Below, piece by piece: positions 31,221 through 61,490 of a DNA stretch of 64,000 nucleotides (positions are counted from its first letter, which is position 1; each line of letters opens with the position of its first letter). This DNA is from Isoetes taiwanensis (Eukaryota > Streptophyta > Lycopodiopsida > Isoetales > Isoetaceae). Below the pieces are notes generated by a model. It did not search any database and was not told the origin of the DNA. It worked only from the letters and a program-made list of their open reading frames with translations. The DNA is taken from contig JAJEKV010000013.1 of the NCBI GenBank assembly GCA_021234155.1, positions 12,550,669-12,614,668 of the forward strand, given 5' to 3'. The position numbers and the translations under genes were made by a program.

Positions 31221-31479
31221 AAATCTTTTGAAGGGCCGAACCGAACCGCTGTTAATAAAGTATTTGAAGCTTTGCCGGAACAGAGGGAGGAAGAGGGGCC
31301 AGTCCGCCATAGAACACTAAAGAACCCTAAAATATATTACTCGAGACTTGCATGTTCAATTCGGAATAATATTCCAACATTCATAGGTGACCATTGGAAA
31401 ATGCCCCAAAAATCAAGGGTCCAAAAAGGGCGCACTCTAGAAATACTATTTAGTACACCTCATCTGGATAAGGGTTAGT

Positions 31480-32850: not shown

Positions 32851-33913
32851 CACTCTAGATCATGCTCTTACGCTCCGGGTGCTCATAGAGAAGGCCAAGG
32901 CTCCTAACTGTGCTTTATATGCTGCCTTCATAGATTTCTCCAAGGCATTTGACACTGTTCCGAGGAAGGGACTGGGAGAAAGAATGGAGAATCTTGGTGT
33001 CCCTGCAGAAATCAGAAGTGCAGTTTCGCAGCTATATGAAGAGGTCCTCATTAAGCTATCTGTGGGAGACACGGTCAGAAGCACCATTGGCGTGCGCCAA
33101 GGGTGCCCCCTGTCGCCCACATTATTTGGTATTTATATAGACGAGCTGGATGAATGGCTCAAATCACGCTCATTGGCAGGCACGAAACTGGGCACATACA
33201 TAGTTCAGATACTTTTATATGCTGATGATGTAGTTCTATTGGCAAGCAAAAAGGATGTACTCCAGCAACACTTGGACAGCCTGGGATCTTTCTGCGAGAC
33301 AAAGCACATGACAGTGAATACCTCTAAATCAAAGATTATGACTTTTGGAACCAGAGACAGACCGTCATTTGTATGCCAGGGGCAAGAGCTAGAAACAATA
33401 GAAAGATATAAATACCTTGGCCTTATTTTTTCCTCCAAATATAGCTGGAAGGAATGCATCAGCAGTAGAGCAACTGGCGGAAAAGCGGCCTTGTACAGCA
33501 TGCTTTCCAAATGTTCCAAAACAGCCTTACATGATTGGGGGCTTAAGAGAATTTTATTTAAGTCTTTGGTGCAGACAGTAGTCCTGTACGGCGCGCCTGT
33601 GTGGGGTCCAAACTTATCTCAGAAGTTGTGGAACCAAATCGAGCAAGTTCAAAAAGTGTTCATCCGCCATGAATTGGGTATCAAATATCAGACTCCATAT
33701 GCTATCATGCTCGCTGAGACCGGCCTGTTTCCGTTGGAGCTGGAGGCCTTATATCAGACTGTTAACTTTGTAAACAGAGTCCTGGAGCAACCACAAGACA
33801 AAGCCGTCGTGATCTTGGCGCTACTACACTCTCAAAGCCAAGAGGGCTGGTACAAAGAATGTGTTGAATTGGGCAAGCAAATGGGGATTGACGATGGAAA
33901 ATTGGCCAGGTAA
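32851..33913 (+). pseudogene. LINE reverse transcriptase palm and thumb
   Basis: The frame resumes with HNTLDHALTLRVLIEKAK and contains reverse-transcriptase motifs 3 to 7, including AFIDFSKAFDTVPR, RQGCPLSPTLFGIY, LLYADDVVLLASKK and ERYKYLGLIFS. Both aspartates of the YADD active site and the upstream catalytic Asp of FIDF are intact. It closes early at DDGKLAR, 33911-33913; the continuation is in another frame from about 33905 to 34167. Confidence 0.92.
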
Positions 33914-36260: not shown

Positions 36261-39200
36261 ACGGTTAGGTCTTCTTCCAAATGGCGACCAGGAACGGCAT
36301 GCTAACTGCCTGGAGAATTCCCCGCTCACTTGAGATGTAACAAACATGATGACGGATTCGATTCAAGATGCGGGTACCACTAAAGAGTATGGATGATGAG
36401 TTTAAGTGCTTGTTTTGGTCCAGCAAAGGAAACAGCAATGTATTCCATTTGGCATAAGGATCTTTGTCTTCTAAAATCGACACGGCCGCCAACTAAAGCA
36501 CAAGTTGGACTAAAATCTGCACCAAAAATCTGTGATGAGTTGTGCTTTTTCGGCTCTAACATCCTTAGGGCAAAGAACATGCGAGGGAGCTTACAACCGC
36601 TCTAGCAATTAGCGTGGATAGAAATGGCATGAAAATCTTTCACTTCTTGGAGATAGTTATGGCTTCGCCAAGTAATGCTCTTTGTTAGAGTAGAATGTTG
36701 CCAAATTAAGCGAAGAAAAATGCCTCTAAATGGCGCACAACCTCGATGATGAGTCGGATGTCAGGGCTGCTCAGAACCTAATGGCATAAAGCTTGCACAG
36801 AGTATAGAAACGCCCAGTGTCTTGCTCCAGCTATGGCCGGGATGGAGAAGGCACACATCAAGAATCTGAATCGGGCACAGCTCTCCTTGATCTAATTAAG
36901 AGGGCAGCTTACCTCTTAACACTCTCTATAAAGTCTGGGGGAGGCTCCACAACCTTCGAATCTGCAAGATTGTTGCAAAATACTGATCTAGTGGCTGCTC
37001 CCTCCCAGCCCAAGGCCTTAGGGATCGTAAAAATTCGTGGCTAGCAATGGCGAAGGTTGCAGCTCTCAAGCGGCCAGAGAACAACAATATTCGAGCAATG
37101 AACACTGAAGAAATTGTGCATCTAGACGGTGAAGATCCGAGGAAAGAAGACATGGACGCTATTCCCAATCGGGTTTCTTTAGCATTAGATCTGTTTCAAG
37201 ATCGTGGTAGCTATATAATGCTAGTGAACTTTAAATGAAATTTTCATTTTCTCGGATTGACTATGGCTAATCGCATATTGTGGATAGGCAAATAGCAAAT
37301 CGCAAGTATTGCTTAAAAATATCTCGAGATACTTTGTGTCAAGGCCCGGACACAAAATCAAAGATCCAATTATCGTGGTTCTTTGTCTTCCTTTTGCATC
37401 TCAAAATCCACTCGATTATTCATTTGTTGTTAGACTTGTTAGGCGAGAAATTATATGGAAAGAAAGTCTTACGGGGCCTTCTCTTTAGAATCTTTTACTT
37501 GCGGATCTTCTTTAGTGAAACGGACATATTCTGTGGGGAATTCTTACAAAGCTAATCAAGTTCTTGGTCCCTTGGTCTACATTATTTACATTATTTCAAT
37601 ATTGATAGTTGCTTTATTATTTCTAGATGCAACACTCTTCTTACATGCAAAGGTTCTTCTCAAGGCGAGGGGGCTGTTGTTGGTATGGGAGAAGTGTCCG
37701 CCCTTGGACCCGCAATATCACATGGCGTCCAAATGGATGCTTCATCTGTAACAATTGAAGTCCAAAAAGTCTTTCTCAACATTAGCCTTCCATTTCCAAG
37801 TATGGGAGCAGAGTTTTTAACCAAATGCCAAGGATCTTTTGTTCGTTGGCGATTCTGCACTGCTATTATTGGTGCAGACTTTTATTGGTGCGGGCACCAT
37901 CAAATGAAATTCCTAGCACCTCGGTATTTGTTAAAATAGTGCGGTTCGAATTTAAAAGTAACTCATTACATATTTCGTTGTAGCTTCATTATATAATTAC
38001 ATTTGTAGGAATAAAAGCTCGGAGGCAAAGCGGCAAAGAATCGCAGAGACAATAACCAATCAGGCCTTGACCCTTCATAATCATATTGCGGGTTACTCTC
38101 GGCTTTGGTACCCCGCCACCCACGTATCTATCTGCTCCAATTCCTACCGCCATATGCAATTTCTACATGTCATACAATGGGTCCAAAATGCTCATATATA
38201 CCGCTCTCTATCATTGTGAAGCCATAAGGTTGCTGATCCGGGCTTAACTGTCACACTTTGTTGGCATGAATTATGGCGCTACAACGCCCTCATCGACAAA
38301 ACCATTTATTATTAGCGGAACCGGTTTGCATGTGTCCGTCCCTCCATATATTGTAAGGACTTGGAAAATGGGTTAACTATGCTTAGAAACGTAGAGCCAA
38401 CTTGGACAACCCATGCAAGTGGCACTAGGTTAGCTACTTGCAATGGTGGAACGTTTAGCAATCGTCATGCAAGTACCAATGCAGAGGCTATGAGGGGGGA
38501 ATGTTTTTAGAAACGTGCATTGCTGCAGCTCTCTTTGTCCCCAAAAGGAACTTGCATCACTACTGTTGACCACAAGATGCTTAATAACTCTATCGGGGCT
38601 GCACGAGTTCACGCAGACCACCTTCATAGACTTGCAAAGTATATGTATCTTTTGTATAAATGGAATTTTTACTGAAGCTAAAGGCTTGATCACGCATTCA
38701 TGGCATTTCCTGCATGATCTTATCTTTTAGTCCACAATTTCAGCAATTTTTTGTCCACAATTTCAGTAATTGTACAATGTAGGAGGAATCTGCAGCATTC
38801 CACCTTTAAGTTCATTTTTTATCTTTAAGTTTATACTTAGTCTTGACTTGCTTTTATTTGTTCGTTTCAGAGGAAGAGGAGGAGAATGTTGTCTCTTCTC
38901 AAGAGAAGTATGCAATCCATATGAACACCTTGGAGTTAAGGTAAAAATCGTCTATCAATGTGATTAAAATCTGAAATTTGAGTATGCTTGCATTCTTTTA
39001 ATATGTTGTCTTTTTTGCAAAGTGAAGGAAAAAGAGGTCAGATGCATGTTCCTTCCGAAAAATCTCGAGCGTGGATCAAATGTATTCTCAATTGAACAAG
39101 TTCATGGCAGAGAAGAACAAAGCAAGGCAGCGAACGTTCATAGGTACTAGGAGAACTACACAAACACAAGAGTTGGACTTAGTGGTAGAGTACTTGTTGA

Positions 39201-39860: not shown

Positions 39861-41886
39861 TTGTGTAGATCTCACTTCGTTGATAAGCACTATTGGGACA
39901 ATTTTTTAGAGTGCATGAGATGGAGCGGTAGAATGAAGTGACTTTGTTTGTATATGGCACAAATCGAAGGCACATTCATCCGCCCGATGGCAAAAGGGTA
40001 AGATTATCAAGCACTTTCGTGGTCCCTTGGAGGTGAGGGATGTAGCAAATGCGTCCTAGATGAAACAAAACAAAAATATGGTATTTAATGTGATCAAATA
40101 CATCGAATCTACATTCAATCTTATATCCTTACATCTTCATTTTCATTTATTCGTAGCACGTATATATTGACAACAAACTAAGAATATAATCACCATATCT
40201 ATGGCGGTCCCAAGGCCCATAGCAATCACTAAACGGCTTCTCAAGATCGTTCTTTCTATGAAATACTCTTTGGGTCTTTGGATCATTCCACAACACAATA
40301 GCTGCAGATATAGAAATTAGCTGCAACGAACATACACCAGCAATTGACATAAAGGAAAATAACTACAACAGACATTAAATTGTGTGTGCTTGCAAATGAT
40401 TACCCGGGCTTGCATAAATTTAGCGAGACAAATCTCCAAACTAAAGTCATGTTTGTAAATAAAAGCGCATATGGGTAAAAGCACTGTGGTGTTCCAATTC
40501 GGTACTCCCCCCCTGCCCCCCAAAATGTGGCGTTGCATCCACCACTTTTGTGGTATGAAAGTATAATTATGGCACCGCTTAGCTGCCGGTATTTAAGAAT
40601 AGAGTCCCGCTCAGCTGTGGGGGAAATTCTAATTTCAAAAACTAAAATTCAAATTCAAATTCCTATTCTTTGGCCCCTTCCTCGTTCTTTGCCACGCCCC
40701 GTTCTTTGGCTCCCTCCTCGCTAAGCGAGCTCCAATCCATTGTGGATATGGATGTCAATGAGGTAATCTGTACACACAAACCGGCATTTCGCATGGAGAA
40801 AACGAAGAAGAACCAAGGAACAAGAAATGTTGAAGAAAAAGACGCCGAGGAAAAGAAGAAGAGAAGAAAAATTGAGTTTGCGAGAATTGGCGTAAGGATC
40901 CGGTTCATCAAGAAGTGCAAGCAATGAAACGCCGTATTGTCCTTAATTTGCTAACGTCTTTCCATAAAAGCACCAAAAGAATGGAGGATAGCACGAAGAA
41001 AGAAATTTTACTTGATTTTTGAGGGATAAAACATTGGAAAAATTCATAGGTGAAGAATTAAAGGATTTGGAAGCCAAGAGCATCGTTATAAGGAGCCTCA
41101 CGGGACTCCATGCATCATCCAAACTCTCTACCAAATGATCCCTAGCAGACCAAGAATAGTCACCTTTGCAATGTACACGTACCGCGCGGTTCTCAAACAA
41201 GTGACAAAATCAGCCAAAGAGATCTTGGAAAGGTATTAGGTGTTCACCCAAGAAACCTGCAAAAGGCAAAGAAAAAGAGGGAAGAGATCGATTACAATGG
41301 TGGGAAATGGGTTTCTTACAAGAGGGCTAAAAGATTCGATGCAATTTCAGATGAATATATAGAAAAGATTCAAAAATTTTGGATTGAGAACACCAGAGTG
41401 GTCTCCTAACACAAAGGATGTTAGAACTAGAAGATTGGAGAGAAATGTAAGAGAAGAACATGCTGCCCACTATCTGGAGGAATCACAGGTTAGTTTATTT
41501 CTGTTATTCATGTTTTCTTAGTTATGGTGTTTAGTGTGGTGGTGCATGTGGTGGTTATTGTGTTGTACAGTGATTGTGGTGTACTGTATGCAGCATGTGA
41601 ATTGTGTGTAGTTGACTCTAGTCTGAAATGCAATATTTAATGTTTGGAATATTATTAGAACATTACAGAATTGAGTACTCCTTTACTGGGTGTGTGTACA
41701 GTCTAAAAATATTTGAGCTATAACTAACTGATCCTGAGATACAAATTTTTGTTGAATAAAGACAATTTTTTGTCAGATTCAAGCACAGCTCTGTTGGAAA
41801 GTATGATATATTAAAAAAAGGATCTTACAAAATTTGGCTTTCCATTGAAAGCTCTGTACCCGAGAACTAAATTTACATGCATGATC

Positions 41887-43245: not shown

Positions 43246-45213
43246 ACTAAGGTGCTCGTTAAGTGAATATGATGAGTGTGGGGAATGGTATGGTGCATGG
43301 TTTGATGTGGTATACACATCCTAACAGTTTAGTGTTCATTTCATGCAGATGCTATTGTTCAAGAGGTTTCTGGACCAACATCCAGAAATTAAGATTCGTC
43401 TTCGAGCTTTTGAGAAGCTAAAACCCTGGTTTGTTGTGAAATTGAAGGACTTCAATAGTTCTTTGTTGCATTCAAAGACGCGTGAGGATGCAAATGCTAG
43501 TGGATGGACTCAATGGGATGAGAACCAAACATCCAAGAATTGCACTTGCACCTGCGATGTTTGTAGATCACATGAACTTGGTCAATGCAGGCACACCAAA
43601 GATAAAATTGCAAGTACAGAAGTTTGTGGAGATCTATATTGTGTCCAAAGAGTGAATTAGATGAGTTTCACAAGAAGGCGTGCATCGCAGAAATTGTGAG
43701 TCGTGTGGAATCAAGAAGTTTCAGACACTGTCCCCATGGAAGGAAGTGGCAGTAGGAAAGTGAAATGGGAGTACATTGACTATGAAAAAGACAACGTCTC
43801 GAGTTCTGGTAGGAGACTGACTCATCAGTACAATGAGACAGAACCCAAGAAGCTTCTGGATAAACTGAAAGAGCGTCTAAAAATCTTTCCACTGCATAAT
43901 TTCAGGTACCAATGGCAGGCAAAACAGTTTAAGGAGCTTCTGGAGAATCTCCCAGCAGATGCATGTCTCTCGGTAGTGGATTTTGCAGAGAACTATACAT
44001 TCAAGGAACAAGAGGAGGTGCAGTCGATGCGTTGGGTCAATAACCAGATTACCATTTTGGTTCCAATAACATATTAGTATGACTCAGTGGCAGATGAGAT
44101 TATCAAGGAAACACATTACTATGTATCAGATGATAGGGAACACAATACTTTGTTCGTGCAACACTGCTTCATGAAGCACCACGAATATCTGGAGCAGAAA
44201 GGAAGGGTTCCAAACAGACATTATGTGTTTTCAGATGGTGCAGCATCTCAATTCAAGGCTTCTAGACCATTTTACTTTGTGGCTAGGTACACAAACGACA
44301 CTGATGTCTATAATGATGTGGAATTTTTTTGGTTCTAACCACGGGAAAGGTGAACACGATGGCAAAGCTGCTGAGTTGAAGAGATGGTTAAGACAACTGC
44401 AATTAAAATACAGCAGCATAAAATTGGGTAATGCTCATGAAGTGGTAGAAGTTGCCGAAGAGATGTTTACTTGTGGAACATCCGAGTGGATGAACACATC
44501 TGAAACCAGTAAGAGGAAGAATATAAAAAGGTTCTTTTGGGAAGTCAAGGTGGAGGATATAGATAGAAAGAAAGCATGGGGTGCAGAAAGGATTTTGGAC
44601 ACTAGGCGCATCCATTGTGTACATGCATTCAATCTCACGAATCTCCCGTGCGCTTGCAACGAGGGAACTTTCATGCTTCGCAGCCTACCGCTTGGATGGC
44701 ATGTGGGGCGGTTGTGTGAACAAGCACTACGTTGATGATTGGAAACTTCAAGTTATTGTACCATCCTCCAATGTGCATGCCGACATTGAGGACCGTAAAT
44801 CCAGCCAGGTCTTTGTTCTCCTCCAATCCCACGATGTTAGCGGAGGCACTTAGAGTTGGTGATAATTTTCTTTGCCGTTGCTCGAAAGGGAATGATGAGG
44901 GTTCTGAATTTTGGATTACGATGTGCACAAAACCAAAATGGATAGTGGAGAAAGACTTCCAACTCAATGGAACATGGTACCTCGCATTGATAGTGTCATA
45001 GAAGGTATGTATTACAAGAAGGGCGCAAGATCAACCGTCGGCTATGATCTTTGCGAAGAAAGACGCCTTAGGCATAGTATTCACAACACGACTGTGCAAT
45101 CGGACTTCACATGCCACCAACAAAACGCCAAAACAGGATCAGTATATAGGTTTGATCCTTTAGATGAGGAGAAAATTTTACGAGAATTTACCCAAGTTCT
45201 TTTTTCTCGATGA

Positions 45214-46460
45214 TGATGAAATGTAAAACTATTCTGTAGTTTTCAGAACTCATGTGAAATCTTGTGCTTCAGCTGTGAAAATGAGTTTGTCTTGATTTCT
45301 TTTGAAGATTTGAATTCTTCTGAAACACTTGATTCCTTTGTTTGTGAGATGAATTGAATATGAATTTTCATTGAAATGAATCGAGGTTACAATAATAATT
45401 ATTATCCTATTATTTAAATTTGGTTTTTCTGATGTGTGGAAAACTTTTACATTTTTGTTCCGGCAAATGGTATGCCTATGATTTGCTATGATTTTGCTTC
45501 ATTTCGGCTGCTCCAAAAAAATTTCCGATTGCCAAAAATTAAAATGTCCATCGAGTTGTGTTTTTTAGGTCCGTTTTTTGGATTTGGGTATTCGGCATAT
45601 CTTCCACAAGATTTTCAATCCGCAAAACCTTGGAGAAGCTTTCGGCATGGACAACATCTGTCTGCCTGCCACATGCATTAGACGAATCCATTTGGGCTGT
45701 TCTATCTTATCCGGTGCTGCCGAGCATTTGTGGCTTTCCGATTTCTGATGCAATTTGATTTTTTGCAGCAGTTGCTTTCTTCTGCAAATATACTGGAGCG
45801 TGGAGCGTGGGTTTGGAGATCCCGCTGTGATTTGGCTGTATATGGGCTTCGATTTGGCAACAAGATGTGGATAAGATTTATTTAAAAAGTGATTTCGTCA
45901 AGACTCCTTAGGTTTGCATGGAGGTTTGGCTGTACAGCGACAATCATGTGTTTTCATCAGGTAAATGCATGCATTCCCATATGTATCATTCTTTTATTGT
46001 TAGAGTCTGATGTTTCCATGGATTTTGCACAAGAATAGGCACAGATGTTTTATAATCTCCTTCGACTGTTTTTCAGAAGCATTTGTTCCAATGCCTATGT
46101 TCCAATGTCACGTAGATTATCTTGGAAATTCAACCTTATGTACTCAATGGATTTCTTTGCTAAATTTGTTGGCAGATGTGCAGCTTCTGATTGCTTGAAA
46201 AAATCGTAACATGTAGGTGATTTAGTAGGAACGTTGGAAGACTTGCTCATGGGCGACAGTGGCAATGGCATCACCACACTAATTTCGTGAGTTTCATTTC
46301 CTAGCACTGCTCTTTCTCCTTTTCCTCCGTCTTGGTGATCTGTAGAGTAGGCCATGGTGCTGTGCATAGCTTATAGTTTCGTGCCATTACAAGTTTCTTT
46401 GTTGCTTAGATAGAGCTCCTCAACTAGACTCTGCAACCAAGTAGCATAAATCTATATTGT
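45214..46460. other. Intergenic DNA downstream of the transposase
   Basis: The 3' flank of the transposase gene contains an AT-rich stretch (45380-45420). No element terminus or gene was recognised. Confidence 0.4.
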
Positions 46461-46491: not shown

Positions 46492-47480
46492 TACTTTGGG
46501 AGGTTGTAAATGTTTTAGCCACAATGAGAAAAGTGTGCAGTATATTTGTACCTTTTTATTATAACGAAAACTTTCCAAAGGTTTAAGAACGTTTAAGAAG
46601 CCTATCTCCTTCATGTTAGATGGTTTTGCATCAGTATCTCTGAGAGCTTTGAGTAGAACATTGTGATGCTTGTTCTTAGCAATTTTGAGTGGAAGTAAAA
46701 TGTTAATCTATGCAGGTTTGAGGTGAGGTTATAGTCAAAGTCTCTATGAGGTGGCGAGGAGTTCCAAGGTGTATTCTTCGAGTATCTCTACCAAGTCTTG
46801 ATCGAATCCTGGTTGTTGGCTCCGCATATGTTGGTCATCACTCTCCTGGCTTTCTGCTTGTTGCTCTTCAGTCTCCAGTTGTTCGTCTTCTTCGGTGTGA
46901 TAGGACAACATGACATACATTGTCCAATATCCAATCCTACGGACCTATAGATTGTTGATAAATAACTCAAGTTTTGCTATGTATTTTGTTGTATGTATTT
47001 CGTTGTTTGTGATGTAACAAGGTGACGGATCAATCGCACTAATGACCTGTAGTGCGATTGCGTCCAAAAAAGATTCCTTTTTCAAAAAACCCCAAAATTT
47101 GGTACTTTTGGCATATCTTAAGAAAACATTTAGATAAACGGTCCTTTGACCTTAAAAAAAGTGCATTTTTTAGAACAAACAAACAAAGTACAACATTTAT
47201 AATTAAAAGGAGGTTGTTTTTGGTAGTATTTTAAACGCTTTTTCACTTGACCTGGGCGCACGATCACACAAAAACACAATACTAAGAACAATTAGAAGCA
47301 TCAAAGAAACTGCAAAAAAATGATACAAGGCCAAAATATGATGTAAAATAGATAAGAATGTCTATGCGCCATAGACATGCACCCCGCTTTAAACAAGCCA
47401 CATTTTAAAAAAGTCATCATTTAAGTGCAAATAATGATACAAGGGCGTTTTCATCCAAAGTGTAGTTTAAAGAAGAAAGG
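46492..47480. other. Noncoding flank, left side of the methylase/transposase unit
   Basis: No coding frame recognised. GTGCGATTG / CAATCGCAC inverted phrases occur at 47030-47062 (CAATCGCACTAATGACC and TAGTGCGATTG), a stem of about 9-11 bp that might mark an element edge. Confidence 0.4.
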
Positions 47481-47504
47481 CATGTCTATGCGCGCATAGA
47501 CATG
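47481..47504. repeat. Perfect 24-bp palindrome around CTATGCGCGCATAG
   Basis: The 14-bp core CTATGCGCGCATAG is extended by CATGT on the left and ACATG on the right with perfect symmetry. It is the leftmost perfect copy of the palindrome family found across 47.3-55.9 kb. Confidence 0.95.
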
Positions 47505-48839
47505 CTCCCCTTTTTTAACAGACGATTTCTTTTTGAAAGTCAATATTTAAAAATAAATGTTATTTTTTTCAGCTTTATAATCGACACACAATTTTTTAAA
47601 TGTCATGGGGACCTCCTTATCTTTAAGGGGGTCATCATCGAAACATTGTGTTCTTCACCGCTGTTCGGATCCGCTTTTCCTCCTCTTCCTCTTCCTCTTC
47701 CGCTTTTTCCACCTCGTGTTCTTTATCTACCACCGCAACAACTCAACATACCCGCTTTGGTGATCGGTGTTGCCCGATGCGGTGCATCCGTGGCTCAACG
47801 CTTATTCCCCGCTTGATCGCCACCGCCCTTCACACCCACTTCTTGTTTCTCATCGTGCAAGTTCATTAAAGAACATATCCTCGACTTAATGAAAGCAACA
47901 CTATCGTAATCATACTCCACCGCAAAACACGCTTTTGACCCTTCCTCAAAGCACATGAAATGGTCGCGTGCGAGCCCGAAAATGCATCCACAACCCAGCC
48001 TCCGGTTGTGAAAACATTTCCGTAAGCCCGCTGATTAGCCGCCGGGCTTCGGGTACGGTTGACAACGCCGACCGTGAACTGGCCGGTCAACTTCGGTAAC
48101 CGCAGGGAGCCGGAAGACATTTCGTAGTCCATTCCCCGTGGTGTTGTAGTGTTGTAAGGTCCCGTGCCTAGTGTGTCGTGGGTAACCGATGTGAATCTGC
48201 TCAAATACGCTTATAAGTCTAGCACCCCACCATGGCCACGGATGTTGGTCTTCACCCCAGAAACAAATGAAAGAAGTCGAGACAATTAGGGACACCAAGT
48301 TTAAAAGAGATGCAGACTTACCATATCGCAGGCTTCTAATCCAAAGATTGCAAGAAGTTCCTTCAAGCTGTTTGAACCAAGCCGGCTTGGTTGGTGGAGT
48401 GAAAGACAACGATCCTCCACAAAGGTGTCAGTGTTTAGCTTTACCACCGCTTGACAAAAGAGTCAAACTCACAGACTTAAAAGGCGCCATCCGTCACCTC
48501 TACCGTCCGCAACTTAAACCCGTAGGGTATGTCAGCAATGATCAAGGAGTAGTCACCGTGTTTCAACACTCGCCTATCTTCACACAATCCCCCGGTAGAC
48601 TTGGTAGAGACAAGTGGGGCCAAATTCATCAAAATTCTCAGCACTCTGGTATAATCGCCTGATCGGCCTCTTGTACCCTTTTCAACTTGGCTCTTTCATC
48701 TTTTGCTTGCTTCACCAAAGTCAAGAAACCTGGTGGTACCGGGTCTTTTTTTCTCTGCAAGATAAAAAGAAAGTGAGTACACTGCAACTCCATGCGTGCA
48801 TGGCAAGGCAGCATCAACTTTGTTGTGCACGCACAACAA

Positions 48840-48970
48840 AGATTTAGTTTTGTCCATGCGCGCATAGACAAAGCTGAGGTTTTGTCTATGCGCGCATGGA
48901 CAAAACTAAATCTTTGTTATGCGTGCAGAGCAAAGACTCAGCTTTGTCTATGCGCGCATAGACAAATGGT
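48840..48970. repeat. Palindrome cluster in a methylase-gene intron
   Basis: Three copies of the CTATGCGCGCATAG family (CCATGCGCGCATAG, CTATGCGCGCATGG and a perfect copy) lie within 110 bp, between exons ending at 48754 and starting at 49004. The first two copies and their flanks (TTTTGTCCATGCG...GGACAAAA) form a larger inverted repeat. Confidence 0.9.
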
Positions 48971-51119
48971 AAGATGCAAGATAAAAAGCAAGCAAATACT
49001 TACCCAGTTAGTAAAATTTGAGGCAAATTGTTTTATTTTCTCATCGGACGAGGAAATAGGGTACAGCTCCTGAACTTTTTCCCAAGTGTCGCAATTTAAA
49101 TGGAGCATTAGTTGTTGCTGACACGTAGCACAATCTTTTTGGCTGCAGTAAACAGTATCAGTACAGGACAAAACCTACAGCAGAAGTGACAGAGTACTCA
49201 CTGTTTAAACTCGTGCTGCATTTCTTCTAAGGTGAACTGCCCGTCGACAACTTTTTGCAGAACCTCGCAAACTTTGTCCATGTTTTTGAGGCCCCGTGAT
49301 TTCCAAGGCATCACACTCATATCCTTTTGTTTGAGGGCTCTCCCTTTTTCTTTTTGTCTCGTGCTTCTTCCCCTTTGTCTTCAAGGTACCGGCCCCGCAT
49401 ACATATCAAAAATTTTCTCCCCGCAGATCCCAAATCAGGGTGCACACACAAAAAAGATTGAGTGTCTATGCGCCGCATGGAGTAAGGTGAGATTCAAACA
49501 CAACAACTAGGGAAACTTACCCTACCGTGCACGAAGGCTAGGCTAGCTGAAACAGATTGTCGATTTAATCAATGAAGTCCCGCATCTTTTTGATCGTAAG
49601 TCAAACAAAGACTCAATTGCACATTGCTCCTTTAAAGCGAGATAAGCCCCCGGATCATCCTTTATGTCTTTCTTTCCGGGTTCTCTCGCCTATAATTATC
49701 ATATTCTCTCGTGGCATAAATTTAATTTTATCCGACAAGCTCATGCTCAACCTCGTAGTCGCTTGTTCACGCTTGGCTCATAGCAAGCAGCTTTTGCTTC
49801 AAAGGCCGCTACACCAACGTAGACGACAGCCAGAGAGATGAGAAGAAGATTGCTTGCTTGAGTTCTTTCCACTCGCCTTTTTGCCTTAAATGTGTGTGTT
49901 CCACCAATCACAATGTACATGTAATTGTCACCTCTTCTTTCTTAAATTCTTCCAAGGTTTTACAAGATTTAGGGGTCGACAATCACTATGTGTGGGGGGA
50001 CAGCTTGCATTCGCCCCGCCCCGATTCTCTCTTTTAAGGCCGCCAGTGGTTCGATAAATCTTTCTTACCTGAACGGCCTGTTACCCCGAGGATCCTTTGG
50101 GCACAACTTCACTCTATCAATCAGAATGCATAATGCCGTGCACCCGCACCTCTTCTCAATGTCCTCCAAAGATTTTGAGGGCCTCGTCCTTGCCCTTTGA
50201 GGCTATCTTCGTGCCGGGTCCTTGGGGCAAGTTACACTTGGAAGACTCCCCTTTTCTCTTCTTCGCCTTCCCCTTGACTTTGAATTCAGGCCCCGTTCCG
50301 GTCCACAAGGCTTGCCTTCCGCCACCACGCCGTTTTTTTTCTTCTTTTTGGCAAATCCAGTTTCTTCCTCCTCCGAACTCTCCGTCTGCTCCACCTCTTT
50401 ATCCGACCGCTCATCTCTCTCTCGCTCTACCCCTTGCTCTACATCCGATCTACCTCCGGCTCTACCTCTGGCTCTTTTCATTTCTCGCTTCACCCACCGC
50501 CTTTGGGTTCAAGAGTGGATCCTTGCACTTAAGCATCAGTTCAGTGTTTCCACAAGATCCCGCAAAAAAAAAGTTAGAAAAACCCTATGCGCCAAGATAG
50601 ACAAACTAAAGTACTTACCTTTTGTTGCTTGAAACAAGCCCAGTATGAATTCTTGGGCTTCTCATTCATGGACATACTCAGTCTAAAAACATCGGGTCAA
50701 CTAAGCACGTGGTGTCTTCTCCCTTTACTGGTGGTGATCGTTATTGTAGCCATGCCGAAAAAGTTGTATTTCGATGATTCTCGCCACACTTCTTAAAATC
50801 TGATCCGGTCAACTTCGACTTTGGCAAGGAAGATTTCGTGGGCAATGTACGATACACATAGTGCCGTGTCCGGGGATATTCACCACCTCTAATGATTAAC
50901 CATTGACAGTTCCTACGTAAGAGAGAACCGCCATCATTCATTCCGGGTCCATGTTTGCAAAGTGGTAAAGGTAGGGGAGCTTCAGGAGCTTGCACATCCC
51001 GAGAAGGCTTTTCGCGCTTTGGGTTTCTTCCTACGTAAATATAAAAGCACAACAGTCGAAAAAATAAAGAATGCTACAAAAACAAACCGAGACTAAGTAA
51101 AGAGTGAAAACAAAAACAT

Positions 51120-51435
51120 AATAAACCTATACGCCGATAGACACACTAGGTTGTTGTCTAATGACAAGTAGACAAAATACCTATTGTGTCTATGCGCATA
51201 GACATAAATGGTTTTTGTCTATGCATGCACGCATTAAAAACCTTGGATATCTATGCGAGCATAGACACCTTAAGTTTTTGTCTCTGCGTGCAAGGACAAA
51301 AAGAATTGTGTCTATCTTGCGCGCAAGATAGATAATGGTTTTACCCCAAGCGCGCAAGGACAAAAAGAATTGTGTCTATGCGCCGCATGGAGTAGAAGTT
51401 ATTGTGTCTATGCGCCAAGATAGACACAACACTAG
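51120..51435. repeat. Palindrome-derived cluster in the first methylase intron
   Basis: At least seven degenerate members occur: GTCTATGCGCATAGAC, GTCTATGCATGCACGC, ATCTATGCGAGCATAGAC, CTATCTTGCGCGCAAGATAG, and repeated GTGTCTATGCGCC forms. The phrase AAGGACAAAAAGAATTGTGT is also repeated. The palindrome core varies while symmetry is often kept. Confidence 0.85.
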
Positions 51436-51619
51436 CAACTACCTACATATTTGCCCAAAATACAAAAAAATATACCTAACAAATATCTAAAAAGTAGTGC
51501 AACTAACCTATTTTTCATTTTCCACACAAGCTAACAACATCTAAAAAATGCAACAAACTAATTCTAAAAATCACCATAACTACACTAGAGGCAGGAAAAC
51601 CGTACCTTGAACCTGCCAT

Positions 51620-52155
51620 TTCAGCGAGTGCTATACAGAGTTGTATGGAGATGTTCTGCAAACTTGGGAGAAGAGAACTCGAAGGCGGAGCGAGGCGGAG
51701 CGGCTGGCGCCTAGAAGCAAGGTATCTATGTGAGAAATGACTGCCCGGTCGGCCTATTTATACTTCGTATTCAGAAGTTGCGCTTTTCGTGGAAAGATAC
51801 ATGGACCGTTTATTTTTTTCCCATGGGGTTGCTTATAGTACTATTGCCGTCTATGCGCGCATAGGCAACTGAGTAGACTTATGTTTATTTACTGAACCTG
51901 TGCATGCAAAGTGTTTGTTTAGGCCATCTATGCGCGCACAGGCAACTGAGTAGACTTATGTTTATTTACTGAACCTATGCGTGCATAGTATTTGTTTGCT
52001 AATCCCATGCGTGCTTAGGATTTGTTAAGTGGAATGTATGGGATTTCTGTTGATTTGCCTATGCGCGCATAGGACTTGCTTGTTAGCAACCGTGTCGGCT
52101 TTTTATTCTCGCATAAGTAAGTCTTACACAAGCTGCTTTTGTCTTGCAGCAAACA
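51620..52155. promoter_or_regulatory. Shared divergent promoter interval
   Basis: On minus, GTATAAATAGGCC (about 51757-51769) is a strong TATA box about 145 bp upstream of the methylase ATG at 51619. On the other side, a unit of about 78 bp containing CTATGCGCGCATAGGC and ACTGAGTAGACTTATG is present twice (about 51850-51925 and 51927-52003). It is followed by TTGCCTATGCGCGCATAGG near 52060 and a CTTGCAG acceptor at 52143-52149 before the transposase ATG. Both genes therefore share about 540 bp with palindromes in it. Confidence 0.6.
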
Positions 52156-53054
52156 TGTCAGACAGTGATCCATGTTCGCCTGGAAGTCCACCTGACATTT
52201 TTGTTTCGTTACCTGGTGGTAAGTTCTGCTCTCCCTCACCTCCAAAGTACATTACAAACTGTGGCAAGAATCCTCAGCAAGAAATGGAGGAGTCTCCGTC
52301 CCCTGTACATTTGATCCGCCCCTCTTCCACATTTGTCACTCCTTCACCCACTCACATAATACGCCGCCGTAAATTTAGAACTCCTTCACCAGAAACTTTC
52401 CACCAAGGCAAATATTCTCCATCTCCTTCATCGCAGTAATCAAAAATGGGAGGTCCTTCTTTTTTGATACACCTTCTCCTTTTAAGGAGCTCGAACAAAC
52501 ACCGGAGGATATTTCGCTACGCTTAGCGTGATTCCACAACGGCGTAAGGGACCTTCTCCGCGCAGAGGGTTGAAGAGGAAGATATCTCCACGCTGAGAAG
52601 AAAATCAAGGACACTATTTCCACAGTCATTCTCCACCGCAGCTCAACCGAATTAAGTGACGCCGAGGTTCGTGACACCACCAAATTGTCATAACAAGCAG
52701 AGTACCACAAGAGAGCCCTCCTTTGCAAGATCTAGCTTTTAAGAATCCCTACAAAGAAGCCAAAGAGATTTAAAAGGGATCCTTTAAAAAAGTTTTTCGA
52801 CAAAGGTTACGGAACAAGCTCATGGGCTTGAAATACCCGAGGCCTTTAAGGAGGCTAACCCGCCGTCCGTAAAAAATGTTTGCAGTCCTTCACATTTTCT
52901 CGCCATTAGGAACGCAAGGCATAGCTTTCATCAATGACCGTGGGTGACCAGAAGCTTACCCGCTATTAACGCCGCCGTAAGATCTGAGACAACTTTTCTT
53001 ACTACTTGATGAGGAAAACCGCTTTGTCAACTAGCTTTCAAAAGCATACATGCC

Positions 53055-53100
53055 TTAGGTAGCCTAATGGCTAGAGTGCGTAAACGCTTGATTTGAATCC
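53055..53100 (+). repeat. tRNA-like motif within the transposase gene
   Basis: GTAGCCTAATGGCTAGAGTG resembles an A box with D arm, and GATTTGAATCC (53090-53100) a B box, only about 20 nt apart. It may be a decayed SINE head or chance. It coincides with a stretch where the transposase frame cannot be followed. Confidence 0.35.
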
Positions 53101-53519
53101 ACGTATTGATGACTACATCACACCCAAAAAAAAAATTGGCATGTAATCGCTTAGAAGCCGGCTTGGCTTGTGGATTTCTTTGACAAGAATTGCGCGAAAG
53201 GTTGCCAAACAAATCCAGCTTTATCATCTAATGGATAGCTTTTGCAAGAAAGAGGTCTATTCCTTGTACAAAGATCTCTTCCGTGCTTCGACGAAGTTCA
53301 TTTCTTACTCCTACTTCCTTCGGTTGTGGAAGCAGGAATTTAACCTCGTTAGGATTCCGAAGAGACACAGGTTTTCCGTCACAACCTCGTTCTCTTTTTG
53401 AAGGAGAAGAGATCTCCGACTAAGGTTCCCGCAGAGAGAAGTAAGTACCCACGCTCATGTTTACCTACACGTGCACAATCAATGTTTTCACTGATCATGC
53501 GCGCTTAGTCAAAAATCAA

Positions 53520-53660
53520 TCTTGCCTATGCGCGCATAGGGAAGAGTGTTTTTTGTCTATGCGTGCATGGGCAAAGAAACAAGGTTTGCACCAGTTGGTC
53601 TTCATGTCCACTGAAAGCAAAGTGTCGCGGTCTATGCGCCGCATAAGCATAGGACACGCT
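53520..53660. repeat. Palindrome copies in the transposase-gene intron
   Basis: GCCTATGCGCGCATAGGG (about 53524), GTCTATGCGTGCATGGGC (about 53555) and GTCTATGCGCCGCATAAG (about 53630) lie inside intron 53441-53710, outside coding sequence. Confidence 0.9.
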
Positions 53661-55659
53661 TTGGCAAATCTGCTTAAGTAAAACTGACAAAGCTTCTCAT
53701 TTTGTTGCAGATCAAATTTCGCAGCAGCTCCAAGAGCACAGAGAGGCTCAGGCTTTAGAGAGAAGGAAACTTGCGAAGCATCGAAAAAAATCACTGGAGA
53801 AGCCATTACAAAGATATGTCCGTTGTGATTGATGGCATGGATCGTAAAAAGACAAACCTCGCCTCACTTTGTGAATGTTCCTAAAGAGTTACCTGAAGCG
53901 GATTTTTTGAGGTTGCATTTAGTTGGTGCCCTGATTTTTAATGGTGTGGTGGACTGCAGAGTTTACTTGACTTACCCAAACATTCATGGTGATCCTAACC
54001 TTACTGTGACAATTCTTAACAAGATATTGCTGGCAAAAGAAAAGCTACCTCCTGCTTTATGTACAAATCCGGACAATACCACCGTGAGAGAACAAAACCA
54101 GTATTCTTTGCTTTCATCGTGGCTATGCCGGTAGAGCTTGGCATATTTAGGAAGGTTAAAGTGGGCTTTCTTCTAGTGGGTCACACACATGACCGTGATC
54201 GACCGATGTTCACCGCCGCTTTTGAGACTCCGCAGAAAAAGCTTTCGCCTTGACTCCTTGTTGGAAGTGATTGAACAATCTTACAATCCGTAACCTAAGT
54301 TATCGAGGTCTTAGCCGAGACTATCGATTTCCGTGAATTTGTTTTTCAAAAACAGCCTACTTCAGTGTCCTCGCCATCCACTCATAAATAATTTGACATT
54401 TCAAAGATCATGTCAAATTCAAAATTAGCAACGGAAAGCTTGTCTTCAAGGTAAATACTTTGTAACCTCCAAGTCCCGGGCTGCCCTCAACCGTGGTTGG
54501 AGTACCTTAAGTTTATCCCGCATTCTACGTAAATGAAAAGAGCTTTGCAAAGAGCCCCTAAAAAGTTCCATTGACTACACCAAAAAGAATCCAGCCAAGG
54601 ATCCCTTTGTCTCACCGGCCAACATGGAGAAAAACATACGGTTGGGATTTAAGTACTTCAAAGGACGAGACAAACGCTGGTGGGAAGACCGGTTTGAGGT
54701 CATGACAGATTTAACAAAGATCTTGAAGAGCACCGCCTTTAGAGGTTCCCTTTAGATGGCCTTGTAGTCGGCCGTCACAACCTGCTTCAAATTCCACAGA
54801 AAGTGTGCGGATCGACTCCCCAACCGGTGAACAACAAAAGATCCCGACCGGCAAATGTATTTAGGGGCTTAGAAAAGCAAGAAAAAGAAAGTCGGTCAAA
54901 CTCCAGAAAAGCTTGCAGACTTACAAAAGGACATGTTAATAGCAGTCCCTTCAACAGATGACGATGAGGAGCGTCCTTTCTGGATTGCAAGGGTCAAAGA
55001 TATTACCTACAAAGATAACCTTCCTTCAGTTGTAAAGGTTCACTGGTATGCCACTAAGGCTACAGATCCATATACTGGTAGATATGATCCTCAAGTCGTT
55101 CCTGTCAAGAAGGGAAGGAAAACAATGAACAAGAATCACGTGGATGATGTCGACTTGAATGAAACAGCTGTCCTTGCCTACGACTTTACTTTGAGGGTTG
55201 ATAATAAACTTCGCAGCACAACAGTTACATTGTTGAAGGAACAAATCGAGGACAGCTCGGACGATTAATCGAAGAAACCGAGGAGCCTACTTCGGCCCAG
55301 CTTCTTCAAAGCGAACCAACAGAGGGTCCTAGTAGTGGAGATGAAGAAGGAATCGATGAGTATGACGACGTTCCTGATGAAGCCACTCTCGCCGATTGGC
55401 AGCGCGCTAACCCTGGCAAGAAGCTGCTATTGTAAAGGTGTAAATTTGTAGTTACATTCCTGCTTTGCACGCAGAGGCTTTAATATTTTTGTACGTAAGT
55501 TGTTTGAAAAGCAAGCAAGACTTTTGGTATTTGTTGTGATACACTCTTGCTTTGCGTGCAAAGCTTGTGTAAACTTTGTAATGATGTTGAATATTAAACA
55601 AAAAGACCTTTTGGAGTACTTTTTATTTTCATTTTGCTGAAATAATTTTTTTTTAATTT

Positions 55660-55870
55660 GGACCTGCCTATGCGCCAAGATAGACATTTTATCTTAAAGT
55701 TTGTTCCAGTGCTTGGTGAATGAACCTCAGACAGCCTTCTTTGCAAGCTTTTTAGATCTTAAGTGAAAGAGATTCAAGCTCATACAAATTTTTCGAGTGA
55801 TTTGTATTATTTTTGGTATACCAAAAATTTCTAACTCGACCTGCCTATGCGCCAAGATAGCACCTTTGTC
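55660..55870. repeat. Palindrome-derived half copies in the 3' flank
   Basis: GCCTATGCGCCAAGATAG occurs twice (about 55668 and 55844). The same variant, with CCAAGATAG replacing GCGCATAG, is seen at 51411-51420, which links the two flanks of the unit. These are the rightmost members seen. Confidence 0.8.
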
Positions 55871-55899
55871 TCCCTGTGTTTTTCTAGGACTACTAACTA

Positions 55900-57690
55900 A
55901 ACTCAGATTTTTCCTTTTTTGCTAGCTTTTAAAAGTTGTACTAGCTAAGATTCCAACTATTTTTTTTTTGTTGATTTCTTGTCCGTGCTAACTTCCCCAA
56001 GTTTTTTTTTTTTTTTTAGGACACCCAAAAATGGTGCACGGAAAGTAAAAAGAACAGCATTTTTTAATAATTAGACGCCAAAAAGAGCACCTGTTAACTA
56101 AATTTGTAGTCTATTTTTTTAAGTGACCCCCCAAAAGTGGTCGAATTTATGGGAATCTTAGGGAATCTACAAAAGATGCTTTTATTATTGATAATGATGC
56201 CAAGATTTTTGGTACCTAAGTTGTGTTCATTATTGTCTTCCATCTTTGGCCTAAGATAAACAAAAGCATGATGTTAAATTGACCTAGATCCTCCGCAAAA
56301 ATGTCTTATAAGATGCTTTTTGGTACCTAAGTTGTGTTCATTATTGTCTTCCATAAGATAAGGACCTAGATCCTCTGCAAAAAAGGCTTGAGGTCGATAT
56401 AAGGGGCAAAAAAGGGGGTGAAAAGGTTAAAAAGGCAATGAACATTAGAGAGAAAGTTCTTTAAGAAGGAAGCCTTTTATCCACATCACATCATTCCACC
56501 CTTTCTTTTCATACGATCTAACAAATTTACCTATTTCCCGATCTAACAAATTTTTCTATTTCCTTCTCTATATGATGATCTAACAAATTTGTCTATTTCC
56601 TTCTCTATATGATGATATATTTTGCAACACTACTAATAGTGCTGAATTAATCAAGGGTAGTTGTAGTTGTTGGAAAATTATTGAAGTATAATGTTGTAGT
56701 TGTTGGAAAAGAACATGGCATTGAAAAGGACATTGAAATACAATTAAATATTTAAATGTAAAATTGTAATTGTTGGAAAAAAGAACATGGCAATGTAGTT
56801 GAATATGTAGATCAACTGCAATCATTTGTTTGCCACCTTGCATAATTCTTGTAGTTCTAAGCATTCTATAAATCTACCCCAATATAGCATTCCCTCCATG
56901 CAAAGAGATCTTTTTCGATTAAATTTAACCAAAGCCCCGCCAATAAAACAAATTGAGGAACGGTCAATTTCCAAGGAGAAGTTTTAAATTCTCATTACCA
57001 TTGTGCAACCTAGATTTGCTAGAGAAGGGCCATGGTTTTTAGAAAATAATGCAAGCTTGAGTACCGATGTATAAGGAATGGCGTAAAACCATGCATATAT
57101 GGGCCTTCATATTCATATTCTCCACTTTCATGTTATGTTGATAACCTAGACACATACGATTTCACCTATATTAACAAAAGCAATTATGCCACGGCACACT
57201 TGCATCAAATTATTCTATATTGTTCTTGACTTAAATACCAAATTTGTTCATAAACAGTCAAGCTAAGAGTGGGGTGGTTAATTAGCGTTTTGAGGATAAT
57301 GTTCTCCAACTCGATACCAACCTTTTATCAAACTTCTTTAATATTTTACATATTCCAGGTTGTTCAATTCAAGATAATGTATAAGCATTAGAGTTCCCTC
57401 CCAATTTTACCTATACAGAAGTAGAAAGGACTATAAAAACTGATAAACTCAAGGAAACTTATTGAGAATAACTTCTCGAAGATAAATATCCACAGTTGGA
57501 GTGAAACCTCAGATTCTTCAAAGATATCGGATTTATTTGGGTTTTTCAAAGAATCATTACATGCCTTTAATAATGCCTCTTCATGTCTCTCAATAAGATG
57601 TTGTAACTACTTCGGGCAAGGGTCCTTTTGTATCAAGAAAAGGACAACTTTTATACCTGAAAAAGGAGACTATAAAAATTGAACCAAGCC
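55900..57690. other. Intergenic DNA with short local repeats
   Basis: The phrase TTTTTGGTACCTAAGTTGTGTTCATTATTG-like (split over about 56205-56240 and 56318-56350) occurs twice, as do CCTAGATCCTC phrases. Near 56690-56800 GTAGTTGTTGGAAAA units recur. No gene recognised. Confidence 0.5.
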
Positions 57691-58149
57691 ATAGCGCTAC
57701 AACATGTAACAATGCACCGGGAGCGTAACTCCAAAGGCGAGGATCGCCCAAAGATATATCACGCTAGTGATAGGGAGCAAATTCCTAAATAAAAGAAAAC
57801 AAATATTTTGAACAAATGAGCAAGATCCCAATGCTAGACTCATGGGCATGATTTCCTCGATCATGCCTTTAAAGTTGAGTGTTATCAAATCTTCTTTTAC
57901 CGCCGGAAAAGCGACTCTTACTAATTTCTGTCTTGGCAATCCCGAAGGAGTAAAAGGTATATTAGAGCTAAGGAACAAACAAAGAGAAAATTTACAAAAT
58001 ATGATATCCTTCCTCATACTGAGCTTAAGAGCTTAATTTACAGGTAAGTACTTACATCAAATTGCCCATGCAAAGGTTTGGAAATTCGATGCCCTTCGTG
58101 AGTAAACTTCAAGTTATCTTTGTCATTATAATAAAGCTGAAAAGTCGAA

Positions 58150-59320
58150 TCAATCAGTCAAAACTTCTTCAAGCAACCGCCACAACTCAAAGAAGAAACT
58201 ACGTGAGACAAACATGCCGAATTTTGCAAAGAAACTCCCCGATCCTCGGCGAAGACTACGGGCATAAATCGAATTTGCTGAATCGATCATTGGAAAGACG
58301 AGTTTGTTGAAACCGACTTTGTTTGAAGCCAAACATGCACACCGAGGTCATTCTCGCGGTGTGCCGGTTATCATTAACCGTGCCTTGCATTTTGTGCAAT
58401 CAATCTTAAGTGCTTTGTTCTTAAGTCGCTTTTCTATCCTTTAAAAGATGTGCCTCATCCATAACCACACAGCTCCAATTCCATTTCCTCAACATACTAC
58501 GGTCCTCTTTTTGAGGATGCACCGGGCATACCTTTCAAACTTTAGAGAAATACTAATCAGCTAAATATATGATGCATAAAATACCTCGCCTCTCAAATTG
58601 TGAATAATCGGCGAAAGCAAAGACATGAAATGGTGCTGGTTGGTGAGTCTTGGCAAAGATATTGCAAATCTTCTTTTGTTGACATCCGATTAGCGCCATG
58701 GAATAGTACCACATCAAAAGAAGGACACCATTTCTCTAGTTCCCTTTGCCAGCGTTTTCAAAGCACGTATGCCGGGCGCATAATTAAATGAGGACCGTGG
58801 ATCTCCTTCCGTGATGTTGGAGGAGGGCTAGAAATGCAAGAGCCTAACAAAAAAACGGACTTAAGTTATACAATGCTAACAAATAGAACTTCTAGATGAA
58901 CCAAAGAAAGTGAATTCACCCGGATCTGTCTTTCCAAGGCCCATCTCATCCGCAAGAATGGCTGTAAGAAAAAGAAAAATCTCATGTCGAAGGCGTTCTA
59001 AGGCAAAGACCAATTGAACAACACAAAACATCGAGATTGAGGTGCGTAAGAGCTTCATAAGATGACAAATACCTCCCGCAACATTCTTCCGTAGCTCTAC
59101 AATTCCCGTGGTTCCGCACAAACATCTCGAACCAAAGCGCTTCAAATTTCCGGCCGCCTTGGACCCTAAATATTACACTGCTTTTTATCTCTTCAATCGG
59201 GCAGAGAAGATTGATTCGAAGCCAAGAAGAACATTGGCAGGTCAAAAGTGAGGGCGAGGCGACCTAATCTTGAAGAAGATTTACGAACACGGCCGCCATG
59301 CCCTCGGAGATGCCAAATCG
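58150..59320 (-). pseudogene. SNF2-family ATPase fragment (SMARCAD1/CHR19-like?)
   Basis: Helicase motifs appear on minus in the right order but in changing frames. ILADEMGLGKT (58929-58962, Walker A) follows a TTCTTACAG acceptor. Then come RWQRELEKWCPSFDVVLFHG (58.70-58.77 kb), APFHVFAFADYSQFERR, WSCVVMDEAHLLKDRKA (near 58460, DEAH box) and RLMITGTPRE (58350-58375). The APFHV...FERR and WSCVVMDEAH..KDR wording recalls the SMARCAD1/CHR19 branch, from memory. Family members are chromatin remodelling motors. The second helicase lobe is not visible to the left, and an in-frame stop follows MITGTPRE. It may be a gene fragment carried by a mobile element or a dead host copy. The N-terminal part before motif I is unreadable. 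Confidence 0.65.
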
Positions 59321-61490
59321 GAGATGCCCTAAATCCCTAAATCGCATACAGCGAGAAGAGAAAGGATATTTCGACCGTCGAAAATATTAATCAAATCTTG
59401 GCCGTCGAAAGTTTTAGGGTTTTATGCACGACATACACTAAAACTTTATAATAAAGGAGGATATACTTCATGCTTTCTCTTTATTTTCCAATGATGCAAC
59501 AATTTGTTGTGTTTGTAGTTTATTAAATCATATGAGCAGTCTGCAGTCATGGTAGCAAGCATATTGGCAAGGATATGTTGCTTTAGATTTGCGCTTCTTT
59601 GCTCTATATTCCCTCACTGCAAAGCATCCATCGAAATGTTTCTTCCCTTCTTTGCATCTTTGGTTCCCGAAAAATTACAATTACAAGCTTTTATGTTCTC
59701 GGTTATTTCACCTTGCTTATGGTATGGAGCATGCATGGCGGGGGATTCCATATTAAATTGAAACATGATGAAATGTGTTGAAGCTTCGGATTGAAGAAGG
59801 TACCTTATCTCCGCAAAAGATTAAGGCCCTAATTTTTAAGGTTCAGGTTTGGAGCTCATTGCATTGCAAAGAAAGTATTATCTACTTTCCATTTTGTTTG
59901 TTTATTTGTATATTGTTTGTTCTTCAGGTTGTTTTCAAGCTCGGGAGTTTATTTATAGGGCACTTTTGAGCAAAGATCCATAAACTTTAGTGTGCTTCAG
60001 GCATGTGCCTAATTAGGACTTCCTTCAACAAACCAAATAGGAATCGATGTCCCAAAGTGTGTCATATAAAGGTATTAGCCTCAAGTCCCAATATTCGTCC
60101 AAAGCTAATATTTGTTTTTCTTATTTCCCTGCAGTATGGACTGTGTATAAAGCTTGGATCTATCGTTACAGTTGGCTCTCATGTGGTTGTGAACGAAAGT
60201 TTGGCACAAGAGGTAATGTTAGATAGAGCATGAACAACACAAGAGACATTAAGAGATTTTATGAACCATTTCCACCATATTGATTTGGGTTTCGTTAGGT
60301 AGCAGTTATGATGGTGATTTTCGTTGCTCTATAGAAATTTATTCTTTAATGATTTTGCTTTCTAGGTAATAAAAACAACCGAAAAAGTAAGATATACGAA
60401 TTACAACTTCGTTGAATGTGCAGTTGGCGTTGCACTCAGTAGTAAACGGCTTTGACCATACTTACTGTATTAAGGTTGCTCCTTTAGTTTTGAGCTGAAT
60501 TGTGGGCCTCTGATCCGTCTAACTTATGATGGGTTACAGTTAAGCTAGGTCAATGGATGGGTTAAATGTGATCGTACCTAGAGGATATAAAAATTGTTCC
60601 TTTAGCTCAGAGGAGGTTGGCTTGCAAATGTTGCAAGGACGTTTTAAAATATATGAAATTGGCATGAACTGTAAACACCAATCTATGCAGTTGCCTGAGA
60701 TTGCAAGGGTGGATTATGATGGTGAGATATGGGTTATTTGGAATGTAACTTGCAGTAGCCTGGAGTCCTTTTACAACAATGGCTAATCTTGATAAACTTT
60801 ATATTGATTCAGTGTTTTTTCGATAGTTTTGTATTTTAGGTAGTATCTTGCGTGGAAGCTCATATTTTTGTAGGGTTTTTATGGATTAATCAGACCATTG
60901 CACCAGTTGAGCTACATGGAAGTGGAGATTGCATGTGCAACAAAATCAATGCCCTGGCTACCAAATTAGCATATTGACAGGTAACTTTCCTTTCCACAGT
61001 ATCAAGTGAAAACCGTTGGATGTCTCTTCTGTGAGCTCCATCTACATACATATTCGTCTTAACATCCTTCTTAGCATCCAGTAGTGAACGCTACCAGATT
61101 TTTACGACGATTCTTAAGACATTTTATTTTAAGCCTCGCCACATGAAGCCTTGGTTAGCAATTAGTTTATTTGTGTGTCTTTTATTCTTTAGGGTTTAGG
61201 GTTTTCTGCAACCTCGGCTTCCTCTTTCTGCATTTAGATGTTGCACGGCCCTCACTTTGTACATCAAGCTCCTTTGACATGGCCACATAATTTTACATGG
61301 GACCAGTAAAAGCCGTGGTGATTTGTCATATTTCTCATCCATATTTTTGCAGGTGGATTTGAAGCCTAAAGTATGGCTCCAGAAACAGTTTTTCAAAGTT
61401 TAACAAGGATCTCTTGCTATAATTGATTATCTTCCATTGGGTGAATCGGAGTGAAAAGGCACTCATGCTGATATGCAAAGATCTGGATGG
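59320..61490. other. Intergenic DNA, nothing firmly recognised
   Basis: Open frames at 59549-59761, 60003-60233 and 60553-60786 (+) lack recognisable motifs. Near 60908-60926 the minus strand has TGTAGCTCAACTGGTG, a near-perfect A-box/D-arm half of a tRNA without a B box. Confidence 0.4.

Follow-up and report, generated by a model that had tools for sequence, protein, structure and literature searches.

A candidate DNA transposon of Isoetes taiwanensis pairing a DUF7869 transposase gene with a divergent beta-class amino-methyltransferase gene

Methyltransferases in retrotransposons, TET enzymes in DNA transposons and bacterial-type N4-cytosine methyltransferases in eukaryotes are already known. 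Among the mobile elements of eukaryotes, a DNA methyltransferase is encoded by DIRS retrotransposons, in the form of a DAM domain, and by Ty3/DIRS elements, as a C5 cytosine methyltransferase (PMC6338049). Fungal Kyakuja-Dileera-Zisupton (KDZ) and other DNA transposons encode TET/JBP dioxygenases, which are thought to counter silencing by methylation, and the plant VANDAL elements (MuDR) carry a second gene, for an anti-silencing protein that acts sequence-specifically on the element's own silencing (PMC12730594). Bacterial-type amino-methyltransferases also occur in eukaryotes, as in the case of N4CMT of bdelloid rotifers and the N4-methylcytosine (4mC) methyltransferase of Marchantia (PMC8885841). 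Here these systems are compared with a locus in a 64,000-nucleotide stretch of DNA from the lycophyte Isoetes taiwanensis, referred to as the window. Two divergent genes lie within positions 47350..55880, a DUF7869 gene on the plus strand and a gene with amino-methyltransferase motifs on the minus strand. This stretch is probably, though by no means securely, a single DNA transposon, 8.5 kb or more in length, that encodes a DUF7869 transposase and a beta-class amino-methyltransferase, and the two genes presumably moved together.

The plus gene (52155..55435, read in several frames) is certain to encode a DUF7869 protein, as the first-pass annotation of this DNA had proposed. Two separate frames exceed the Pfam gathering cut-off of 26 for DUF7869 (PF25273), at 33.4 and 30.6 bits (E 4.2e-8 and 3.1e-7), and the stitched reading retrieves 17 relatives, the best of them (E 3.5e-117) sharing 40% identity with the query across 84% of its length. 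A profile built from 12 of the 17 relatives aligns to positions 53698..55265 at 470.1 bits when frameshifts are tolerated, with 15 frameshifts and 3 stops. The conserved DUF7869 core VGFLLVGHTHD is present on the plus strand at 54161-54193, and its G154, H155, T156, H157 and D158 are invariant in the 12 relatives. Homologues with a named source come from the liverwort Riccia sorocarpa (one protein, 35% identity across 89% of the query) and the fern Adiantum nelumboides (two proteins, 50-51% identity across 25-32% of the query), while a search of viral contigs for DUF7869 found none. The predicted structure of a relative resembles, with modest scores, DDE transposases and integrases, a class defined by an RNase H fold with three acidic residues, together with a BAH domain. 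These likenesses suggest that the plus-gene product is a transposase with DDE chemistry, and a BAH-like fold is predicted for its C-terminal part at 54873..55268, an open frame (BAH rows at about residues 375-493 in the model of relative P0001).

The minus gene (47800..51619) has several exons and a likely ATG at 51617-51619; its start, intron and exon limits were set by eye on three-frame readings. The C-terminus corresponds to a beta-class amino-methyltransferase, and the N-terminal part is without a recognised domain (a ParB-like domain seen there by eye was set aside, Pfam giving nothing up to E 10). The motifs first noticed in this gene are present as claimed: DIPYG (motif IV, 48519..48533) is followed on the minus strand, after 530 bp, by DAFSGS (motif I, 47971..47988) and then by the acidic motif AVEYD (47909..47923), with DAFSGS and AVEYD in different frames. 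The order of motif IV before motif I is that of the beta class. The stitched reading was aligned with 5 viral relatives of YhdJ, the beta-class adenine methyltransferase of E. coli, to which it is 18-23% identical. Columns of D, P, Y, F, P, D, G, S, T and also E are invariant in this alignment, among them the D, P and Y of motif IV, the D, G and S of motif I and the E of the acidic motif.

Library profiles match the minus gene weakly, with E 0.11 for PF01555 (motif I stretch), 0.034 for UPF0020 (DIPYG) and 0.11 for PHROG 3008 'DNA methyltransferase', and unrelated families score about as well. The stitched core reaches 12.8 bits against the curated PF01555 cut-off of 26.7, a low score that is to be read in light of the broken frame, which depresses any such value. 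An independent beta-class profile was therefore made from YhdJ of E. coli together with 25 of its viral relatives (26 of 51 YhdJ-type loci, picked for diversity and length) and applied with the purpose-written frameshift-tolerant script that also served for the plus-gene profile, for which the gap, frameshift and intron costs were fixed once and left untuned. Over both strands of the entire window, with frameshifts and introns allowed, the top match is at 47674..48592 on the minus strand with 41.1 bits, and scores elsewhere do not exceed 23.3 bits; a second hit of 26.8 bits is an overlapping piece of the same locus. Eight random 16-kb sequences gave at most 23.9 bits, and in nulls over 5 kb the maxima were 29.6 bits for 400 random sequences and 23.7 bits for 60 column-permuted profiles. 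The match corresponds to a Gumbel p of 1.4e-6 per 5 kb, or about 4e-5 for the window, and retains 39.3 bits without its Glu-rich tail. Furthermore, each half is significant separately, the motif IV side with 26.8 bits (p 7e-4) and the motif I side with 31.8 bits (p 1.5e-6). The traced alignment places DIPYG opposite DpPYn and WVVDAFSGSHAT opposite vVLDpfmGsGTT; AVEYD rests on the eye reading and the stitched alignment, since the traced alignment takes another frame after motif I. The methyltransferase assignment thus survives a profile test that is independent of the motifs on which it was first based. We conclude, as far as sequence comparison can indicate, that the minus gene was a beta-class amino-methyltransferase, which would act on adenine N6 or cytosine N4.

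The ATGs of the two genes are separated by a 535-bp spacer (51620..52154, with the plus-gene ATG at 52155-52157), confirming the head-to-head arrangement over about 540 bp that had been described. A TATA-box-like word, TATAAATA, at 51755..51762 on the minus strand may serve the minus gene, whose ATG lies about 136 bp further on. The best evidence that the two genes form one unit is a family of palindromes that both genes carry in their introns and that also occurs in the spacer and the two flanks. The perfect 20-bp palindrome TGTCTATGCGCGCATAGACA is found in the left flank at 47483..47502 and has its sole other perfect copy at 48945-48964. Sixteen sites of the window agree with it in no fewer than 15 of the 20 letters, and all but one of these are within the element (15, two overlapping). 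Twenty random sequences as long as the window (64 kb) have 0-2 such sites each, which bears out the common repeat family that had been proposed. Palindrome cores are concentrated in the same way, with 31 of the window's 44 located in 47350-55880 (binomial p 6e-18) and the closest others at 40465 and 58776. The minus gene holds 8 and 4 cores in two introns and 2 in less clear stretches, and the remainder are distributed over the plus-gene intron (5; 53440..53710, limits set by eye), the spacer (7) and the flanks (3 and 2). No core falls in the exon intervals (4,768 bp, with limits set by the author). The more crowded minus-gene intron, at 48760..49015, contains its 8 cores in 255 bp and has GTAAGT...TTGCAG ends, and copies of the repeat family (family D6) in the right flank are at 55661-55694 and 55838-55871. 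Shared repeats already begin at about 47359, slightly to the left of the start at 47481 given by the first-pass annotation, whose layout otherwise stands. Two further words, CTATCTTGCGCGCAAGATAG (one copy, 51312-51331) and CTATGCGCCAAGATAG (four copies, at 50585, 51408, 55668 and 55845), seem to represent a second palindrome type and hybrids of both types.

Several results weigh against a single element. The interval 47350..55880 is a minimum extent, as defined by the palindrome family, and the true ends were not found. The class criterion for DNA transposons is terminal inverted repeats with a target-site duplication, and KDZ elements are recognised by KDZ transposase homology with a 7-8 bp target duplication. 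In this error-prone sequence neither terminal inverted repeats nor a target duplication came to light around 46.6-47.5 and 55.7-56.7 kb, where the best left-right matches score no better than shuffles, or in a wider comparison. The adjacency of the two genes is seen at one locus, in a single copy. No transposase-methylase fusion is seen either, since a motif IV-like word is present in none of the 17 DUF7869 relatives and a motif I-like word in one alone (P0017); a Pfam scan of 4 relatives showed no methylase family. The missing ends, the single copy and the lack of a fusion would fit two independent insertions, in which a DUF7869 transposon came to lie beside an unrelated methylase gene of the host or of another element, with the palindromes as a small repeat that invaded the non-coding parts of both. 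This alternative is possible but doubtful, as palindromes in the introns of both genes are hard to explain by chance neighbours, and the concentration of cores within 8.5 kb, with none closer outside than 40465 and 58776, argues against it. The proposal that both genes belong to one element is supported by the shared intron and spacer repeats.

Both genes had also been described as decayed. Both frames are indeed broken, but the breakage tracks a loss of CAG and CTG and a gain of CCG, which points to base-calling error. CAG and CTG are symmetric CHG sites, which plants methylate. The damaged stretches contain 89 CAG and CTG words against about 168 expected, as compared with 43 against 42 in the undamaged parts of the plus gene and 389 against 395 in reference stretches, and the damage is patchy inside one gene. 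On the plus strand of the damaged stretches CTG is at 0.38 and CCG at 1.74 of expectation, and over both strands none of the 64 words is more depleted than CAG/CTG or more enriched than CCG/CGG. A CCG is found no more than 9 bp away from 10 of the 15 frameshifts, where the random mean is 3.05 and none of 5,000 draws was as high. The damaged stretches were picked after the loss of CAG had been noticed, a circularity that affects the comparison inside one gene and the frameshift test less; a Spearman test (8 of 64 tiles, in three repeat-rich stretches, dropped) is partly built in, both of its variables holding CAG/CTG counts, and was not relied on. Deamination of methylated CHG was rejected as the main cause because it predicts TAG, CTA and low CpG, whereas TAG and CTA reach 0.97 and 1.10 times their expected numbers and CpG is high (0.87, as compared with 0.40 in the reference stretches). 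When the damaged parts of both genes on the plus strand are pooled (47500-54880), CCG is raised and CGG is not, an unexplained result suggesting that the error or bias is strand-specific.

Much of the apparent decay is probably an artefact of base-calling error. Error at methylated CHG sites could cause the damage pattern, presumably in nanopore reads. Two papers indicate that plant methylation hampers or likely hampers nanopore base-calling; a word check of their text found CAG, CTG and CCG named in neither, and a literature search on nanopore errors with CHG methylation turned up no paper. As the breakage pattern points to error, the element may be more intact than it appears and heavily CHG-methylated. 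The opposing explanation is an ancient, truly decayed element in which the frameshifts and stops are real and the methylase is a relic. It is unlikely: a stretch of 1.57 kb that holds 15 frameshifts and 3 stops is in keeping with it, and real decay may be present on top of errors, but patchy damage within one gene, the exchange of CAG/CTG for CCG, the high CpG and the near-expected TAG and CTA are not what it predicts.

A broken SNF2-family helicase gene adjoins the element at 57650-59420 on the minus strand, with the motifs ADEMGLGKT, MDEAH and ITGTP (stitched reading, PDB E 1.2e-12). This host-type gene carries the error signature of the transposon, with 23 CAG/CTG words against 59 expected (0.39) in 57000-59500. 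Similar damage in the two genes of the element is therefore no evidence of shared age, and the earlier argument that took it as a sign of shared movement falls away. A larger element that takes in the SNF2-like gene (57.7-59.3 kb) was rejected because palindromes are lacking there, one core (58776) lying between 55847 and 64000. Elsewhere, CAG and CTG fall below half of expectation in the 1-kb tiles at 7001-8000, 24001-26000, 37001-38000, 40001-41000 and 56001-60000. The patchiness of these tiles over the window may reflect CHG methylation or uneven polishing; the stretches at 15-17 kb and 24-26 kb are also low but rich in tandem repeats.

Protein searches, tblastn and an 8-residue pattern scan found no relative of the minus gene, and an NCBIfam scan gave nothing relevant. 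A sequence search of solved structures with the methylase reading placed carboxysome shell proteins in the top rows (E 0.19-0.59, taken as chance) and included two methyltransferases at E 0.85-0.91. The minus gene might instead be a DNA methylase of the host, domesticated or gained by horizontal transfer, similar to N4CMT or the Marchantia enzyme and outside any transposon. Such enzymes are known in eukaryotes (PMC8885841), but the introns of the minus gene share palindromes with the transposase gene, and a conserved host gene might have yielded a relative in the protein searches, making this origin improbable. Still less probable is that the minus gene is not a methyltransferase and its motifs arose by chance, a reading that draws on the absence of a curated family at cut-off and the empty tblastn and pattern scans and is opposed by the 41.1-bit match of the whole-window scan, each half of which is significant alone.

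If the locus is a single transposon, a mechanism can be proposed. The DUF7869 transposase, with its predicted RNase-H-fold DDE core and C-terminal BAH-like domain, would recognise and move the element, possibly by binding the palindromes or the unseen ends. The palindrome array in the non-coding parts would be a putative binding site of one or both proteins, and the predicted methylase (adenine N6 or cytosine N4) would mark the element's own non-coding DNA. This mark may gate transposase binding or transposition by methylation state, as Dam gates transposase binding in some bacterial transposons, or it may allow escape from host silencing, by analogy with the presumed role of the TET enzymes of fungal transposons and of the VANDAL protein. 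The second purpose is placed slightly ahead, given that a BAH domain also seems to be part of the transposase. The copy in the sequenced plant is probably silenced and CHG-methylated, and this methylation would lead to base-calling errors that resemble mutations. The general proposal, that some land plants contain a family of DDE transposons with their own beta-class amino-methyltransferase, which writes N6-methyladenine or 4mC on palindromes in introns, spacer and flanks, and with a BAH-bearing transposase that would read host chromatin marks, is tentative and slightly less likely than not.

Other repeats in the window include a second transposase-like reading just to the left of the element (43350-45220, plus strand), which contains VFSDGAASQFKASRPF and then NHGKGEHDGKAAELKR in another frame and whose longest frame has no meaningful Pfam family. 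A nearly intact retrotransposon of the long interspersed nuclear element (LINE) type is present at 31441-33913 on the plus strand, with two overlapping frames for endonuclease and reverse transcriptase (PF14529, PF00078) and near-normal CAG/CTG. Some six units of 362 bp form a tandem array at 23100-25245 on the plus strand.

If intact copies confirm this element, it would be a plant DNA transposon that writes a mark other than 5-methylcytosine (5mC), the place of which on the palindromes would be directly readable by PacBio kinetics, as well as a mobile source for the amino-methylases turning up in eukaryotes. The error signature also cautions that methylated elements which look 'decayed' in plant assemblies from noisy long reads may be less damaged than they seem, and CAG/CTG loss could act as a crude map of CHG methylation. 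The literature searched (titles and the starts of abstracts, with many journals outside its coverage) contained no DDE transposon with an amino-methyltransferase and did not name DUF7869. A DDE DNA transposon with a beta-class amino-methyltransferase would be a new combination.

Comparison with the known systems clarifies in what this combination would consist. The minus gene shares the order of motif IV before motif I with E. coli YhdJ, with DIPYG in place of DPPY, and it likewise lacks the SPPY of N4CMT and N4-cytosine methylases. N4CMT is a host gene with an SPPY motif and a chromodomain (PMC8885841) and the Marchantia 4mC methyltransferase is also a host gene, whereas the minus gene reads DIPYG and adjoins a transposase gene. 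The DIRS and Ty3/DIRS elements are retrotransposons, with the DIRS DAM domain inside a polyprotein, whereas here the methylase is encoded by a separate, divergent gene next to a DDE-type transposase. The VANDAL elements have motif arrays in their non-coding parts, and their anti-silencing protein is not known to be a methyltransferase. KDZ elements and their kin resemble the candidate Isoetes element in being DNA transposons with a DNA-modifying enzyme; theirs alter 5mC, whereas the enzyme predicted here would place a methyl group on an amino nitrogen.
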